Shown here piece by piece: positions 904 through 59,915 of a stretch of DNA of 64,000 bases (positions are counted from its first letter, which is position 1; each line of letters opens with the position of its first letter). Source of the DNA: an uncultured Bacteroidia bacterium (GTDB taxonomy: Bacteria > Bacteroidota > Bacteroidia > Bacteroidales > UBA932); assembly GCA_902780935.1 (NCBI GenBank), contig CACZHP010000001.1, forward strand, positions 62,001 through 126,000, given 5' to 3'. Under the pieces are notes generated by a model. The model was not told the DNA's origin and searched no databases. It saw only the letters and a program-made list of their open reading frames with translations. A program made the translations under genes and the position numbers.

Positions 904-1612
904 GCAGGCCGGAGCGGCTGCCGAGCTTAGGCCGTACTCAGCCGCAGCGAGCGAAGCGAAGCGAGAATGGACGCGGCCGGGCTCGGACAGCCGTCCGGCG
1001 GTGATTATCGTTGGAGGAAACAACCCCGATGGCAAGACATGCTATCAGGAAGTTTTTACGGTTGGGGAGGGAGAACGCCTTGACATCACTTTTATCGTTC
1101 TGCCGGGAACATCTGCGGAAATACCTGTCACTGTGGATATTACCGGATCCGATGCAGAAGTGGAGCTTAAAGGGATATATCTTAGTTCCGGCTCAGACAA
1201 GGTGACTTTCGACATCACTATGAACCACCTTGTCGGAGGCAGCGTCTCCCGCCAGCTTTTCAATGGCCTGGCCACCGGGGCCGCCAAATGCGCCTTCAAC
1301 GGAAAGATCATAGTGGCTCAGGACGCACAAAAGACCGAGGCCTATCAGGAGAACCACAACATAGTGCTCTCAGATGACGCCAGTGTCGATACAAAACCAC
1401 AGTTGGAAATCTATGCTGACGACGTGAAGTGCTCTCACGGGGCGACCGTAGGTAAACTCAATGAGGATGAGCAGTTCTACATGCGGTCAAGGGGCATTCC
1501 GGAGGATGAGGCTAAGGTGCTGCAGATGATCTCTTTCGTCGCTCCGGTACTTGCCGGCATAGAGGATGAGGAACTTACCGCAAGAATAGAAAACGCTATC
1601 CGTTCGTTGTAA
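884..1612 (+). CDS. Short SufD-like protein (SufBD core only)
   Basis: Carries the C-terminal SufBD beta-helix core, with the family motif LEIYADDVKCSHGATVG (Cys183, His185) and the following YMRSRGI segment. It should act with SufC as scaffold. At 242 aa it is much shorter than usual SufD (about 420-450 aa) and lacks the N-terminal half. Residues about 9-39 are not SufD sequence: they translate a palindromic repeat (family A, 909-998). The ATG at 884 sits inside sufC; a GTG at 1001, just past the repeat, is an alternative start that would leave the repeat in an untranslated gap and give about 203 aa. The gene ends 2 nt before ispE. Family assignment is firm; the start and whether this is a full SufD substitute are open. 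Confidence 0.85.
   Translation: MDSNSSKQAGAAAELRPYSAAASEAKREWTRPGSDSRPAVIIVGGNNPDGKTCYQEVFTVGEGERLDITFIVLPGTSAEIPVTVDITGSDAEVELKGIYLSSGSDKVTFDITMNHLVGGSVSRQLFNGLATGAAKCAFNGKIIVAQDAQKTEAYQENHNIVLSDDASVDTKPQLEIYADDVKCSHGATVGKLNEDEQFYMRSRGIPEDEAKVLQMISFVAPVLAGIEDEELTARIENAIRSL
909..998. repeat. Palindromic element family A, copy 1
   Basis: The left arm CCGGAGCGGCTGCCGAGC (909-926) pairs with the right arm GCTCGGACAGCCGTCCGG (981-998), 17 of 18 positions with one bulge on each side. The interior from 926 to 981 is identical over 56 nt to positions 1824-1879 in ispE, but the arms are unrelated to that copy's arms. A second, inner pairing GGCCG/CGGCC (930-934 with 975-979) lies inside the core. 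It sits directly after the sufC stop and is open in the sufD-like frame, where it reads RPYSAAASEAKREW. This is seen directly; mobility is inferred. Confidence 0.85.
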
Positions 1613-1614
1613 AC

Positions 1615-2757
1615 ATGGTTCTCCAGACAAATGTTAAGCTGAATTTAGGGCTTGAGGTTCTCTGCAAGAGGCCAGATGGCTTCCATGACATTGAGACGCT
1701 TTTTGTCCCGTGCCATGAGTTCGGCGACACCCTGGAGGTCATCACCGGCGACGACTACAGCCGCACTTCGGCCTCCCTCTTCGCCCGCTATAGCACATCT
1801 CTGGCTCAGGAGGAGCAGCCGGCCTTAGGCCGTACTCAGCCGCAGCGAGCGAAGCGAAGCGAGAATGGACGCGGCCGGGGCCGGACTGCTCCTCCGGTTT
1901 GGGAAGGCGAGTTAGTTCAGGGGATAAGCGAGGATGGGAGGTTGATGATCACGATCGCAAGGGAAGAGGGCGTGGACTGGGATCCTCTGAAGGATCTGTG
2001 CGCTAAGGCTTACTTCTTGCTGGCCAACGACTTCCAGTTGCCTCCAGTCAAGATATTCCTGGAGAAAAAGGCTCCTGTCGGGGCCGGGCTTGGCGGTGGT
2101 TCCGCAGATGCGGCATTCACGCTTAAGGCCATCAATGAGCTTTGCTCCCTCGGACTATCAAATGAAAGTTTGGCTGAATATGCCTCAAGACTGGGAAGCG
2201 ACTGCGCGTTTTTCATCTGGAATCGGCCTATGATCGGTACCGGGCGGGGCGAGATCCTTGAGCCGTTCGATGTGGATCTTTCCGGCTATGAGGTCAAAGT
2301 CCTCGTCCCAGAAGGCATCAGCGTCTCTACAGCCGAGGCCTACCGCGGCATCGTGCCTCGCGATAGATCCTTCGCTGACGCTCAGGATGACAATAGTGTC
2401 GCTCATGATGACATGGTTGTGGTTAGTGCCGCCAAGGGGAAGGGTGCCACAACCGCTGCCACCCTCGGCACGCTAAGAGGGGGGACCGGAGCGGAGCGGA
2501 GCGAAGCGAGCGGTGGGGTCGAGCGAAGCGAGACGGTTGTGGCACCCTTGCCCCTTGGCGCAAATAATATCAAAGAGGTTCTGCGGGGGCCGGTGGAGGA
2601 ATGGAAGGGGTTGCTGGTGAATGACTTCGAGGCGACAGTCTTCAAGGCGCATCCGGAACTGGCCGCGATCAAACAGTCGCTTTACGACAGCGGAGCGGTC
2701 TATGCCGCCATGTCCGGCTCCGGCTCCGCCATGTTCGGAATATACAAGAAACAATAG
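1615..2757 (+). CDS. ispE: 4-diphosphocytidyl-2-C-methyl-D-erythritol kinase (IspE) with three inserted elements
   Basis: GHMP-family kinase of the MEP isoprenoid pathway, phosphorylating CDP-ME in the cytosol. Seen: the N-terminal substrate segment NVKLNLGLEVLCKRPDGFHD, the ATP-binding motif PVGAGLGGGSADAAF at about 153-167, and the C-terminal GHMP motif MSGSGSAMFG. At 380 aa it is about 100 residues longer than usual IspE (270-290). The excess is explained by three in-frame repeat insertions: family A (about residues 66-93), family C (about 251-259) and family B (about 272-315). All catalytic motifs remain in one frame, so the gene is probably functional. The start lies 2 nt after the SufD-like stop, and the next gene begins 2 nt after its stop, so it appears to be part of the same operon. 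Confidence 0.93.
   Translation: MVLQTNVKLNLGLEVLCKRPDGFHDIETLFVPCHEFGDTLEVITGDDYSRTSASLFARYSTSLAQEEQPALGRTQPQRAKRSENGRGRGRTAPPVWEGELVQGISEDGRLMITIAREEGVDWDPLKDLCAKAYFLLANDFQLPPVKIFLEKKAPVGAGLGGGSADAAFTLKAINELCSLGLSNESLAEYASRLGSDCAFFIWNRPMIGTGRGEILEPFDVDLSGYEVKVLVPEGISVSTAEAYRGIVPRDRSFADAQDDNSVAHDDMVVVSAAKGKGATTAATLGTLRGGTGAERSEASGGVERSETVVAPLPLGANNIKEVLRGPVEEWKGLLVNDFEATVFKAHPELAAIKQSLYDSGAVYAAMSGSGSAMFGIYKKQ
1811..1893. repeat. Palindromic element family A, copy 2 (inside ispE)
   Basis: Left arm AGGAGCAGCCGGCC (1811-1824) pairs with right arm GGCCGGACTGCTCCT (1879-1893) with a single bulged base. The interior 1824-1879 is identical over 56 nt to the copy at 926-981, but the arms are not similar to that copy's arms. 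In ispE it is translated in a different frame from the sufD-like copy, reading LGRTQPQRAKRSENGRGR. The third frame would stop at a TAG near the start of the core. It interrupts a variable region between the IspE N-terminus and the ATP-binding motif. Confidence 0.85.
2365..2392. repeat. Family C short repeat (inside ispE)
   Basis: AGATCCTTCGC followed by TGACGCTCAGGATGACA. It is the reverse complement of the TGTCATCCTGAGCG...GAAGGATCT type repeat, and is translated in ispE as RSFADAQDD. A short stem ATCCT/AGGAT encloses the TCGC-rich loop. Related copies lie at 22958-23006, 54849-54875 and 59628-59657. Confidence 0.7.
2430..2560. repeat. Palindromic element family B, copy 1 (inside ispE)
   Basis: A 26-nt left arm (2430-2455) pairs with a 27-nt right arm (2534-2560); the only irregularity is one bulged C. 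The interior 2456-2533 begins TGCCACCCTCGGCACG and contains two GAGCGAAGCGAG runs. The core matches the queH copy (16090-16169), including a 36-nt block with a single mismatch, but the arms are unrelated to that copy's arms. Translated in ispE as ATLGTLRGGTGAERSEASGG, in the same frame as in queH. Confidence 0.85.
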
Positions 2758-15591: not shown

Positions 15592-16326
15592 ATGGGACAT
15601 TTCGAAGGATGCGTTTTCAGGCCGGAAGTGCCTGAGGGGATCGACTTGAAAAAGAGCCGGATCCTGCTTCATTGCTGTTGCGCACCGTGTTCTACCGCCA
15701 TCCTGGAATGGATGGTCGAGGAAGGACTCAGGCCTGGGGTGTTTTTCAGCAACTCTAATATCGTCCCCTATGAGGAATATACTAAGCGGCGGGACGAACT
15801 GGCCAGATACGCTGCCTCTTTCGGACTGGAAGTCATTGAAGATGAATATGATCACGCCGCATGGCTGGAATACGTACGTTCTCGATCCGGGGCCGCTGTA
15901 TCTGGTCCGGAGCGAGGCCCAAGGTGCCTGGCCTGCTTTGAGTTCCGACTTCTCAGAGCGGCTAAGTATGCGGCGGCTCATGGCTACGACATCCTCACCA
16001 CCACCCTCGCTTCCTCCCGCTGGAAAGATCTCTCCCAGGTAGATTCCGCCGGCCGCCAGGCGGTCGGGAGATACTCTCCCCCAGTGAACACTGCCACCCT
16101 CGGCACGTTAAGAGGGGGGACCGGAGCTTCGCAAAGCGAAGCGAGCGGTGGGGCCGAGCAGAGCGAGGCGTTCATCGGGGGAGAGTATCTCCCGGCCGAA
16201 CGATTGGTCTGGTGGAACCAGAATTGGAGGAAGGGTGGACTTCAAGAGCGCAGGAACTTCCTAGTGAAGTCCTGCGCCCTGTACAATCAGACCTGGTGCG
16301 GCTGCGAGTTCAGCTCACACAAATAG
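15592..16326 (+). CDS. queH: QueH epoxyqueuosine reductase with inserted palindromic element
   Basis: Resembles QueH (former DUF208), which reduces epoxyqueuosine to queuosine in tRNA using metal/Fe-S Cys ligands. Seen: HCCCAPCS (Cys28-30, Cys33), the paired Cys in RCLACFEFRL, TTTLASSRWKD, NWRKGGLQERR, and the C-terminal YNQTWCGCEFS. Two thirds of the way along, residues about 157-202 are not QueH sequence but a family B palindromic element (16061-16198), kept in frame between AGRQAV and LVWWNQNWRKGG. All Cys motifs flank the insertion, so activity is plausible. Protein 244 aa against roughly 200 for the family. Confidence 0.88.
   Translation: MGHFEGCVFRPEVPEGIDLKKSRILLHCCCAPCSTAILEWMVEEGLRPGVFFSNSNIVPYEEYTKRRDELARYAASFGLEVIEDEYDHAAWLEYVRSRSGAAVSGPERGPRCLACFEFRLLRAAKYAAAHGYDILTTTLASSRWKDLSQVDSAGRQAVGRYSPPVNTATLGTLRGGTGASQSEASGGAEQSEAFIGGEYLPAERLVWWNQNWRKGGLQERRNFLVKSCALYNQTWCGCEFSSHK
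16061..16198. repeat. Palindromic element family B, copy 2 (inside queH)
   Basis: The left arm 16061-16089 and right arm 16170-16198 are both 29 nt and complementary except at three positions. The core 16090-16169 shares the TGCCACCCTCGGCACG start and the AGCGAAGCGAGCGGTGGGG segment with the ispE copy, with a variable 7-nt patch between them. The arms are unrelated to the ispE arms. Translated ATLGTLRGGTGASQSEASGG, the same frame as in ispE. Confidence 0.85.
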
Positions 16327-54848: not shown

Positions 54849-54875
54849 TGTCATTCTGAGCGAAGCGAAGAATCT
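54849..54875. repeat. Family C repeat upstream of hflX
   Basis: TGTCATTCTGAGCGAAGCGA (54849-54868) then AGAATCT. Stem ATTCT/AGAAT. Lies in the 5' region of hflX, just past the tonB terminator. Confidence 0.75.
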
Positions 54876-56157: not shown

Positions 56158-58020
56158 ATGCAGGGAGTATATGACATAATTGTCGTTGGCGGAGGACACG
56201 CCGGTTGTGAGGCTGCCGTCGCGGCTGCCAATCTGGGGTGCTCAGTTCTCCTCCTTAACGCCGATCTTAGGAGTTTCGCCAGGATGTCTTGTAATCCGGC
56301 TGTAGGTGGAATAGCGAAAGGGCAGATCGTCCGGGAGATAGACGCTCTCGGCGGAATGATGGGTCTGGTCACAGATTCCGCAACCCTTCAGTTCCGGATG
56401 CTGAACCGCTCTAAGGGTCCGGCGATGTGGAGTCCAAGGGCCCAGTGTGATAAACAGGCTTTTTCCCTACGCTGGCGGCAAATTCTCGAAACTCATTGTA
56501 AATTAGATATTTACGCCGATTTTGCAGACTTATTCCTCTTTGAGAATTCAAAAATTGCGGGAGTCCGGACAACTACCGGGGCAATTTTCAAGTCTCGGGT
56601 GGTTATTTTGACCGCCGGAACCTTCCTTAACGGGAAGCTTTTTATAGGAAGGACTTCTTTTGATGGCGGAAGGATAGGAGAGCTCTCGTCTAGCGGACTG
56701 ACCGAACAGCTTGTGTCTCTCGGACTCCGGACCGGGAGGATGAAGACAGGAACTCCTCCAAGGATAGATATCTCTTCGGTTGACACATCGCGGCTTGCTC
56801 CCCAGGTTGGAGACCAGGAACCCGAGCGTTTTTCTTATCTCGATATTCCGTCTTCGGTTCAAGGGAATGACCCCCAGATGTTGTGTTTTATCCTTCATAC
56901 CAACGAGAAAGTACACGATATCCTTCGTGAAGGTTTCAAGGACTCTCCTCTACTTAATGGGCTAATTACCGGCAAGGGGCCGAGATACTGTCCGAGCATA
57001 GAGGATAAGCTTCGCGTATTCCCGGATAATGATTCTCATCAGTTGTTCCTGGAGCCTGAAGGAAGGAGCACAAACGAATATTACCTTCAAGGTTTCTCCT
57101 CATCCCTTCCTCTCCAGACGCAGCTTGATGCTCTTCATAATATAGTAGGCTTGGAGTCGGCTAAGATTTTCAAGCCAGCCTATGCCGTCGAGTATGATTA
57201 TTTCGACCCGACGCAATTGAAAGCCACCTTAGAACTGAAAGATATTGAGAACTTATATCTCGCCGGGCAGGTTAATGGCACGACTGGTTATGAGGAAGCA
57301 GCCGCTCAGGGGCTCATGGCCGGCATCAATGCGGCGCTTAAGGTTCAGGAAAAAGATCCCTTCATCCTTAGGAGGGACGAATCCTATATAGGTGTTTTAA
57401 TCGATGACCTTATCACCAAGGGGGTTGATGAACCGTACAGGATGTTCACCTCAAGAGCGGAATATCGGATACTGTTAAGGCAGGATAATGCCGACTTCAG
57501 ACTCACTGAAAAATCTTTCAATCTTGGCCTGGCCTCAGAGAAGCGTTACACAATAATGGCCTCCAAACGCACTCAGGCTGCGATTTTGAAAGAAGAGTGT
57601 GACACAATCAAGATTCGAAAAGAAACGATTAATTCCTATCTTGAGTCTTGCGGATCCACGCCTTTGACCGACTCGAAGCGGCTTACCGAATTGGCTTCAC
57701 GTCCTGAAGTGCGGCTGTCCGATTTGTTGAATTTTGTTCCACGTGGAACAAAATATCCCAAAGATGTAGTTGAATCTGTCGAGATAGAGATTAAATATAA
57801 AGGATACATCGAGCGGGAGCGTGCCGTTGCTGAGAAAATCTCCCGACTGGAGAATCTCAAGATTCCTGAGGGATTTGATTTTGACAGTATATCGGGATTG
57901 TCGATAGAATGCCGTCAGAAATTCAATCGTTATCAGCCCAGAACTATTGCTCAGGCCTCCCGAATATCCGGCGTTTCCCCCTCAGACATCTCCATCCTCC
58001 TCGTCTATTTTGGGAGATAG
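56158..58020 (+). CDS. mnmG: tRNA uridine-5-carboxymethylaminomethyl modification enzyme MnmG (GidA)
   Basis: 620 aa. FAD-binding [38 protein letters not shown], and the C-terminal helical domain. It modifies the wobble uridine with MnmE. A 24-bp perfect palindrome (57731-57754) containing a parS site is translated as FVPRGTKYP in a variable loop. mnmG is often near the origin in bacteria. Confidence 0.97.
57735..57750. other. parS (ParB-binding) site 1, inside mnmG
   Basis: TGTTCCACGTGGAACA fits the parS consensus TGTTNCACGTGNAACA at all 16 positions, within a 24-bp perfect palindrome (57731-57754). Confidence 0.8.
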
Positions 58021-58682: not shown

Positions 58683-59915
58683 ATGAATCGCCAGATGAGA
58701 ATTCAGGATATTAGACAAATGTTTCCGGCCTTGTCGAAGAGCATCTACGGCAAGCCTCTGGTTTATTTTGACAATGCGGCCACAGCGCAAAGGCTGAAAT
58801 CTGCCGTGAACAAAATGGAGAGCCTCGCTTACGAATCTAACGCCAATATCCACCGGGCGGTCCATAAGCTTGCCGCCGAAGCCACGGAGGAGTATGAGAG
58901 TACTCGTGACGCTGTCAAGGATTATATTAACGCCGGTTCTCGTGAGGAAATCATATTTACCTCAGGCACAACGGCTTCCATTAACCTTGTGGCTTTTTCA
59001 CTTGGAGAGGTCCTGATCCATGAGGGAGACGAGATTATCGTCTCGGAAGAGGAGCACCACTCCAATATCGTTCCATGGCAGATGCTCTGCCAAAGGAAAG
59101 GCGCTTCCTTGAAAGTACTTGGAGTTGATGACGAAGGTCATCTGAAAGTTGAGGAACTGGAGTCACTGATCACAGAGAGAACAAAGCTTGTCGCGGTTAC
59201 CCATGTCTCCAATGTACTGGGAATCGTCAATCCAGTAAAGCGGATTGTAAGTATTTGTCACTCAAGAGGTTGTCCTATTCTCGTTGATGGTGCGCAAGGT
59301 ATAGTCCACGAGCGGGTGGATGTCCAGGACCTGGATTGCGATTTCTATGCGTTTTCCGGGCACAAGATATATGCGGCCACGGGAACCGGAGTGCTTTACG
59401 GGAAGAAAAAATGGCTGGAGAAGATGGTTCCATATCAGGGTGGCGGTGAGATGATCGCCACGGTCAAATTCTCTGGTACAACTTACGCGCCGCTTCCCGG
59501 AAAGTTTGAGGCTGGGACTCAAAATATCAATGCGATTCCGACATTGAAGCCGGCTATCGAGTTTATGAAGTTGTTGAGAGATAAGGAATTACAGGATGAG
59601 ATAAAGATGGTGAAGGAATATATGGAGAGATCCTTCGCTTCGCTCAGGATAACGACATATGGGGTTCCACGTGGAACAGAACCGAAGGTTCCGCTTTATT
59701 CATTTACCGTGGAAGGCGCTCATCACGAGGATCTTGCGCTGATACTCGATAAAATGGGTGTTGCGGTCCGTTCAGGGCAGATGTGCGCGGAACCTATAAT
59801 GGACAGGTTCGGGGTGACGGGAATGGTAAGAGTCTCCCTTGCTCCTTACAATACTATGGAAGAGGCTGAATATTTCTTTAAGTCGCTTGAAAAAGCGATT
59901 TCAATGCTGGTTTAA
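58683..59915 (+). CDS. sufS: Cysteine desulfurase SufS
   Basis: 410 aa. PLP Lys in FYAFSGHKIYAATG, and catalytic Cys in VRSGQMCAEP. Supplies sulfur to SufE and SufBCD. Residues about 316-332 carry a family C repeat and a parS site, in frame (RSFASLRITTYGVPRGTEPK), replacing the variable loop before the VPLYSFTVEG strand. Separated from sufC/sufD by about 58 kb. 10 nt before the SufE-SufT gene. Confidence 0.96.
   Translation: MNRQMRIQDIRQMFPALSKSIYGKPLVYFDNAATAQRLKSAVNKMESLAYESNANIHRAVHKLAAEATEEYESTRDAVKDYINAGSREEIIFTSGTTASINLVAFSLGEVLIHEGDEIIVSEEEHHSNIVPWQMLCQRKGASLKVLGVDDEGHLKVEELESLITERTKLVAVTHVSNVLGIVNPVKRIVSICHSRGCPILVDGAQGIVHERVDVQDLDCDFYAFSGHKIYAATGTGVLYGKKKWLEKMVPYQGGGEMIATVKFSGTTYAPLPGKFEAGTQNINAIPTLKPAIEFMKLLRDKELQDEIKMVKEYMERSFASLRITTYGVPRGTEPKVPLYSFTVEGAHHEDLALILDKMGVAVRSGQMCAEPIMDRFGVTGMVRVSLAPYNTMEEAEYFFKSLEKAISMLV
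59628..59657. repeat. Family C repeat (inside sufS)
   Basis: AGATCCTTCGCTTCGCTCAG (59628-59647), then GATAACGACA. Stem ATCCT/AGGAT, matching the ispE copy. Read as RSFASLRITT. Ends 5 nt before parS site 2. Confidence 0.75.
59663..59678. other. parS (ParB-binding) site 2, inside sufS
   Basis: GGTTCCACGTGGAACA, 15 of 16 to TGTTNCACGTGNAACA, with a perfect 14-bp palindromic core. Read as VPRGT, the same as at site 1. Confidence 0.75.

Follow-up and report, generated by a model that had tools for sequence, protein, structure and literature searches.

A hairpin element with covarying arms around a conserved core, dispersed through genes and intergenic DNA of gut Bacteroidales

INTRODUCTION

Rickettsia palindromic elements (RPEs) are described as palindromic repeats that have entered unrelated genes while keeping the reading frame (PMC10969869, PMC3733652), one of which, RPE-1, lies in the truB gene of R. 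conorii (PMC3733652). In the literature cited here in-frame palindromic inserts come chiefly from Rickettsia, and the gut Bacteroidales provide a second case. The element described below, family A, has the RPE as its nearest described kind. It too is found in frame in unrelated genes, truB included, and the likeness to RPEs drawn by the original prediction, which was made from the window sequence, is supported by these in-frame inserts. Family A differs from RPEs in its phylum, in its length (~90 nt compared with ~150), in its hypervariable arms that covary around a fixed core, in its GNA tip and in its frequent inversion in place; the two have been compared by description rather than by sequence.

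Three further systems bear on the element. Like REP/BIME sequences and their RAYT transposases, family A comprises short dispersed hairpins in genomes that also contain Y1 genes, but it lies mostly inside genes, shows no GTAG/CGTC tag, and flanks none of the Y1 genes examined. The yeast GC clusters are similar repetitive hairpin-forming elements. Hairpin repeats of mitochondria, some of them inside genes, are described as differing by complementary substitutions (PMC2800124); these are likewise hairpin repeats, but organellar, and are likened to family A by description. Finally, template switching at short inverted repeats is reported to homogenise the arms and invert the spacer (PMC8604942), and an excess of stable loops is reported for instant compensatory changes (PMC8794818). 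Both the homogenised arms and the inverted spacers of such quasipalindrome correction have their likeness in family A. As described in those two reports the inversions span a few bases at single inverted repeats, whereas family A is a dispersed family with a core of 40–64 nt that is inverted repeatedly.

The in-frame behaviour within genes is already known, while the covarying arms around a fixed core, the GNA tip and the inversion in place set family A apart. Among the titles and abstracts listed by searches of open-licence PMC papers, none describes a family of this type for Bacteroidales; two of the papers listed appear to touch on Bacteroidetes repeats (PMC5771137, PMC6006769).

RESULTS AND DISCUSSION

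Two copies of the element in sufD and ispE

The window is the whole 64 000-nt stretch of DNA that was analysed (G000:C1:62001–126000), taken from a 3.05-Mb genome assembly. G000 denotes the genome of the window, G with another number that of a relative, and L with a number a locus. The features of the window are listed in Table 1.

Table 1. Coordinates of the elements in the window
Feature	Position	Strand	Description
Family A element, sufD	908–999	+	left arm 908–926, core 930–978, right arm 981–999; 908–926 pairs with 981–999
Family A element, ispE (ORF 1615–2757)	1809–1895	+	left arm 1809–1824, core 1828–1876, right arm 1879–1895; 1809–1824 pairs with 1879–1895
56-nt stretch	926–981	+	exact identity with 1824–1879
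56-nt stretch	1824–1879	+	exact identity with 926–981
Family B element, in ispE ORF	2427–2562	+	arms 2427–2455 / 2534–2562, other core with GCGAAGC
Second family B element	16061–16198	+	arms differ from first copy

The sufD element, which reads AGAAAELRPYSAAASEAKREWTRPGSDSRPA, begins 8 codons into the open reading frame 884–1612. It shares an exact 56-nt stretch with the ispE element, which reads EEQPALGRTQPQRAKRSENGRGRGRTAPP. The original prediction had stated this identity as well as the pairing of the two arms within each copy, and both are confirmed. The two copies fold better than shuffled DNA (z scores of −2.9 and −3.8 on the + strand, −2.8 and −3.7 on the − strand). When up to three mismatches are allowed, a 24-nt stretch of the core is found at only these two places in the window and in none of 100 shuffles. 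The phase of the core differs between the sufD and ispE frames, in agreement with the claim that it is read in two frames; five are used across the family. The arms had been said to differ completely between the copies, which does not hold. The two match with 90% ungapped identity over 81 nt, a stretch that takes in some of the arm sequence. In the inner left arms 11 of 16 positions agree (counted by eye). The arms of the two copies are diverged relatives rather than unrelated sequences. There were no Rfam matches in the window at gathering scores.

G017 and G042 have the same ispE insertion; in G017 its arms differ by a compensated change, and in G042 they are nearly those of G000 but enclose a different tip. 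The ispE genes of G016, G021, G005 and G007 are without a family A insert, and that of G024 has a different insert at that place. In sufD the copy of G000 is inverted with respect to that in the same gene of G041 (L203, L266), while the site is occupied by a different palindrome in G042 and by a short palindrome in G017.

Size and distribution of the family

The original prediction had proposed a search of the genome and its relatives with the core, and this yielded many further copies. An exhaustive pattern scan of DNA collected from Bacteroidales assemblies, mostly of ruminant gut, gave 163 distinct copies, on which the family-wide counts are based. The genome of the window gave 35 matches to a 60-nt query, of which 20 have E ≤ 2.4e-5, and 21 family A matches were found in G049. 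With an 83-nt query matches were confined to three of 41 genomes (G000, G017 and G020), and there were none in the other 22 genomes of the same genus or in 16 of the same order. In a wider sample, a pattern that demanded exact core letters, but left free the arms and the G, N and A of the tip, found at least 110 stretches in the genome collection; core conservation in that sample is therefore partly by construction. The 80 matches listed are all from Bacteroidales or Bacteroidia, and many are named after ruminants or belong to a rumen MAG series, which we take the RUG names to denote. The same pattern matched no viral contig, and on that ground carriage by viruses was rejected.

Since 125 copies fall into 32 groups that share a site, insertion, loss, inversion and arm change can each be placed on a tree.

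The structure of the hairpin

Family A is ~90 nt in length. It can form a single long hairpin in which the stem of the arms is bulged and that of the core is short. The base pairing was analysed in alignment A1. For this, 118 copies were selected that have 40-nt cores and differ in their inner arms; 117 were aligned, and L033 was left out because of its degenerate core edge. These copies come from a first catalogue of 151, collected with a best-match pattern that passes over a weaker copy when a better one follows in the locus, and that missed L017, for example. The A1 hairpin comprises 18 arm pairs, a core stem of 6 pairs and short apical stems. Within it 89.3% of cells are paired, compared with 73.7% for shuffled partners and 25–44% for partners slid by 1–3 columns. 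All 18 arm pairs have changes on both sides, with 483 doubly changed cells against 148 when shuffled. The core stem also covaries (for example GGCCG/CGGCC and GGCGA/TCGCC). Twenty of the 88 columns are invariant, which is due in part to how the copies were found.

Across the family the pairing score of a copy's own arms is 14.5, compared with 7.6 when paired with the arms of other copies and 6.3 when shuffled, and in 154 of the 163 copies the own-arm pairing lies above the 99th percentile of shuffles. The original prediction had proposed to test whether arms pair within a locus but not between loci; by these scores own arms pair better, and some loci share their arms.

The sequence GCGNAGC is located near the apex in 147 of 163 cores. 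The tips of the 136 40-nt cores are GCGAAGC (85), GCGGAGC (30), GCGTAGC (5), GCGCAGC (2) and others (14). Cores range from 40 to 64 nt, and the longer tips mostly have a C-GNA-G turn as well. GNA loops closed by G–C pairs are described as extra-stable DNA mini-hairpins (PMC4686876). A GNA triloop is formed in the predicted DNA fold of L035, whereas a six-base loop replaces it in the DNA fold of L018 and in the RNAalifold consensus. Since the fold predictions are divided, the argument for the tip is based on the sequence pattern and the literature. Small hairpins with GAGCGNAGNCGA-like centres, such as CCCTGAGCGAAGTCGAAGGG, are found in the window at 54850–54875 and 59628–59653; hairpins of this kind stand alone and also serve as family A tips (L008, L069 and L255), and a GAGCGNAGNCGA-like centre with its own, different arms is present in sufD of G042.

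Mismatches of transition type in the arms are biased on the + strand of the element, with 38 G·T compared with 15 A·C (22.8 and 4.6 when one copy is taken per site group). In the fixed columns 10–21 of A1 there are 77 G·U and 25 A·C. The G·T:A·C ratio is 12:8 and 18:6 for the two strands of the host gene, and 8:1 for unassigned copies. As the sign is the same on either host gene strand, the wobble bias is a property of the element rather than of the mRNA, and the structure of the host mRNA is disfavoured as the function of the hairpin. The bias may reflect selection on the single-stranded + strand, or mutation of it.

The arms are inherited

There are 26 pairs of copies that lack homologous flanks and have all 18 arm pairs identical, from which it follows that the element spreads together with its arms. 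The original prediction had suggested that the arms may be made at insertion, a view that by its own terms other copies with conserved arms would refute; the 26 pairs are such copies. We regard it as highly improbable that each insertion builds new arms out of host DNA. Some arms do look unrelated across the family, as when truB is compared with ispE, and at some loci the arms have no clear likeness to those elsewhere; yet against this stand the 26 pairs, the drift of orthologous arms with compensation, and the four central outer pairs CCGG/CCGG, each kept by ~70% of the 117 copies (78, 83, 87 and 80). Because identical arms occur in different genes, and compensated changes at shared sites, the arms are inherited and not made at insertion.

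The drift is seen directly at orthologous sites. In truB the arms form the series TGAACCTG/CAGGTTCA, TGGGCCCT/AGGGTCCA and TGAACCCG/CGGGTTCA. In ispE they are GGAGGAGCAG/CTGCTCCTCC in G000 and GGAGGGGCAG/CTGTCCCTCC in G017, with one pair changed on both sides and one pair on one side. These two series run counter to the earlier argument that drift with compensation could not easily leave such a pattern. Between close relatives the sole difference in the arms can be a paired one, with GATGTC/GACATC in G000 and GAGGTC/GACCTC in G042.

Between nearest relatives, in four classes of divergence, the doubly changed pairs number 9, 32, 110 and 12, compared with 2.8, 18.4, 60.4 and 3.3 expected from independence; the first class has flanks diverged by <8%. 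The ratios of single to double changes are 16:9, 72:32, 135:110 and, for the fourth class, 8:12. In three of the four classes there are more single-sided than double changes, so that two-step compensation of the ordinary kind, under selection, fits as well. The counts of single and double changes are rough, because arm pairs were counted in one fixed register, while L019 and L260 use another, and the paired change between G000 and G042 is scored as two singles. Template switching, which had been suggested as the origin of the arms, is supported as a likely process acting on them, though not at insertion.

Inversion in place and exchange of cores and tips

The element is reversed in 33 of 93 nearest-relative comparisons, and in 19 of 32 site groups. 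Both flanks were required to be homologous in these comparisons, with no minimum number of identical arm pairs. Of the 18 arm pairs, a mean of 12.1 are shared by flipped orthologues, 13.7 by those in the same orientation and 7.7 by copies without homologous flanks; flipped copies are therefore the same insertions. Misassembly is an unlikely cause of the inversions, since an element of ~90 nt would fit in one short read. Over the 33 flipped edges, the arm positions that are informative about orientation follow the core by 67:16 in the inner arm, 31:10 in the middle and 47:27 in the outer arm. The core is followed more by the inner arm than the outer, as expected for switch points located within the arms. 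Homogenised arms and an inverted spacer, seen among close relatives, are the marks of a quasipalindrome hotspot, and suggest its mechanism.

The tip is 9 nt longer in G000 and some relatives, while the copies of G017 at ispE, TldD and L006/L058 have a short tip and related arms. In truB of G042 the left arm of G000 is followed by the core the other way round and then by a second copy. As related arms thus enclose different tips or a reversed core, some exchange between copies is needed.

Insertion within reading frames

Unrelated protein genes carry the element in frame, as with RPEs: 135 of the 163 copies lie inside one long open frame (≥180 codons, and 1.4-fold the length of the next frame), in both orientations and in five of the six frames. 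By strand and phase these are (−,0) 60, (+,1) 42, (+,0) 21, (−,2) 7 and (+,2) 5. The other 28 copies are intergenic or ambiguous. From sequence motifs we take the host genes to include sufD, ispE, ksgA, dnaG, truB, atpG and atpH, and further those of a U32-type peptidase, TldD and glycosidases. In G020 the GH95, U32 and GH3 proteins are shorter and the element is absent at the same places, as it is in the likewise shorter IspE of G016, G021, G005 and G007, indicating that the inserts are additions.

The length of the core is 1 mod 3 in 162 of 163 copies. Copies with no gene assignment have this length too, so it is no proof of translation. Bypass or splicing of the insert is disfavoured, because the frames are kept. 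With lengths that keep the frame, and three frames of the element that would usually be free of stops, the element could survive within genes. It would be translated as a loop of ~30 residues; on the predicted reading frames IspE, KsgA and ATP synthase subunits would carry such an insert, readable from either strand of the element.

The 3′ end of ksgA is a hotspot (L010, L032, L060, L254, L265 and L270), with family A in G000 and G017, whereas G042, G041 and G044 have other sequence there that includes palindromic pieces. Close to the 5′ end of ksgA, a second site is occupied by family A in G017 and by a relative of family B in G000.

The insertions also bear on whether a host function is served at each site. 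Purifying selection on the structure, as a binding site or as RNA, combined with two-step compensation of the classical kind, would account for the single-sided changes and wobbles as intermediates, and for the very conserved core, although the invariance of its columns is in part a product of the search design. Such selection is nevertheless improbable as the general explanation, as the sites are unrelated genes, the orientation is labile, insertions are missing in relatives, and the wobble bias tracks the strand of the element and not that of the mRNA.

A proposed mechanism

We consider it fairly probable that family A is a non-autonomous palindromic hairpin element, ~90 nt in length, which has dispersed to genic and intergenic sites in a group of gut Bacteroidales, with arms and orientation shaped by template switching. 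The relevant form would be the element's own + strand as single-stranded DNA, with an exceptionally stable GNA tip. During replication the hairpin would provoke template switching, which would copy one arm onto the other, so that the arms drift yet stay complementary, and would sometimes turn the core around. By analogy with the reported hotspots, a hairpin with an extra-stable DNA tip may be a natural trigger of such switching. Spread to new sites is probably by an enzyme acting in trans. Two points weigh against this reading: mutation instead of selection could have produced the G·T excess, and a further process is required for loci to exchange cores and tips.

A replicator with no transposase, in which template switching during host replication, primed by the GCGNAGC tip, would not only spread and invert the element but also mend its arms and swap cores and tips between loci, seems to us quite unlikely. 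If true, the sole inherited identity would be the core and the shape.

On either account the shared sites offer a natural experiment on how the pairing of a hairpin is kept up, by instant templated change or by two-step compensation. The scattered family would be a natural record of hairpin mutation in DNA and of the reshaping of proteins.

Y1 transposases and the mobility of the element

The trans-acting enzyme might be a Y1 transposase, for which the original prediction had proposed to look. An REP-type element could be mobilised and rearranged by a RAYT of the same genome, the hairpin being cut, exchanged or re-inserted, and covariation would then follow from a need for the structure. Family A is indeed a hairpin DNA element with a favoured strand, there are several Y1-like genes per genome, and one of them lies just downstream of a ksgA that carries a family A element. 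Moreover, one clade of Y1 proteins (≥55% identity) is present in nine of the 22 searched relatives that bear family A and in none of the 22 searched genomes without it. This correlation may reflect kinship, however; the remaining 13 A-bearing relatives lack the clade, and G049, rich in family A matches, gave no Y1 candidate with that query. The tree of Y1 proteins has 22 rows, including two spurious long branches (G005_L101 and G005_L105).

Nine Y1 loci were examined, five of the seven matches in G000 and four from relatives. All nine are edged by other hairpins (judged by eye), no cognate Y1 gene flanked by family A was found among them, and these Y1 genes were rejected as the cognate mobiliser on that ground. 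The nearest family A element is ~0.3 kb from a Y1 gene, inside ksgA. No conserved tag stands beside the element: in 157 copies, no GTAG/CGTC foot tag or other strongly conserved base was seen in the 9 nt outside either end. Mobilisation by a RAYT is thus unlikely, and we retain the non-autonomous hairpin shaped by template switching as the preferred reading. Target site duplication of the MITE type was not clear; the longest shared word has a mean of 1.78 nt compared with 1.50 nt for mismatched ends, a slight excess only, given inexact element ends.

Other palindromes

A second family, B, has variable self-complementary arms and tips of the GCGNAGC type, and is also found inside genes; besides the window it occurs at L022–L027 of G000. 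Its own-arm score is 16.1, compared with 6.8 for the arms of other copies. There were 40 pattern matches, several of them spurious, and the pattern skips weaker copies before a better one. At the GH3 site family A is present in G000 and family B in G017.

Two GTTCCACGTGGAAC palindromes are located in the window at 57732–57756 and 59657–59681; these resemble parS sites.

Repeats of the form GCGCCATGTGTCC..GGGACATGTGGGGCAT are arrayed around the Y1 gene at L062 and L076 (G000:C8 ~143000–145000), an arrangement that resembles a REP/RAYT cluster. The Y1 genes at L060 and L084, and at L061, L104 and L087, have matching hairpin units on both sides, of the GCATGGTAGAATCTACCATGC type, the ACGGTCC..GGACCGT type or similar, as if they were single-gene mobile units.
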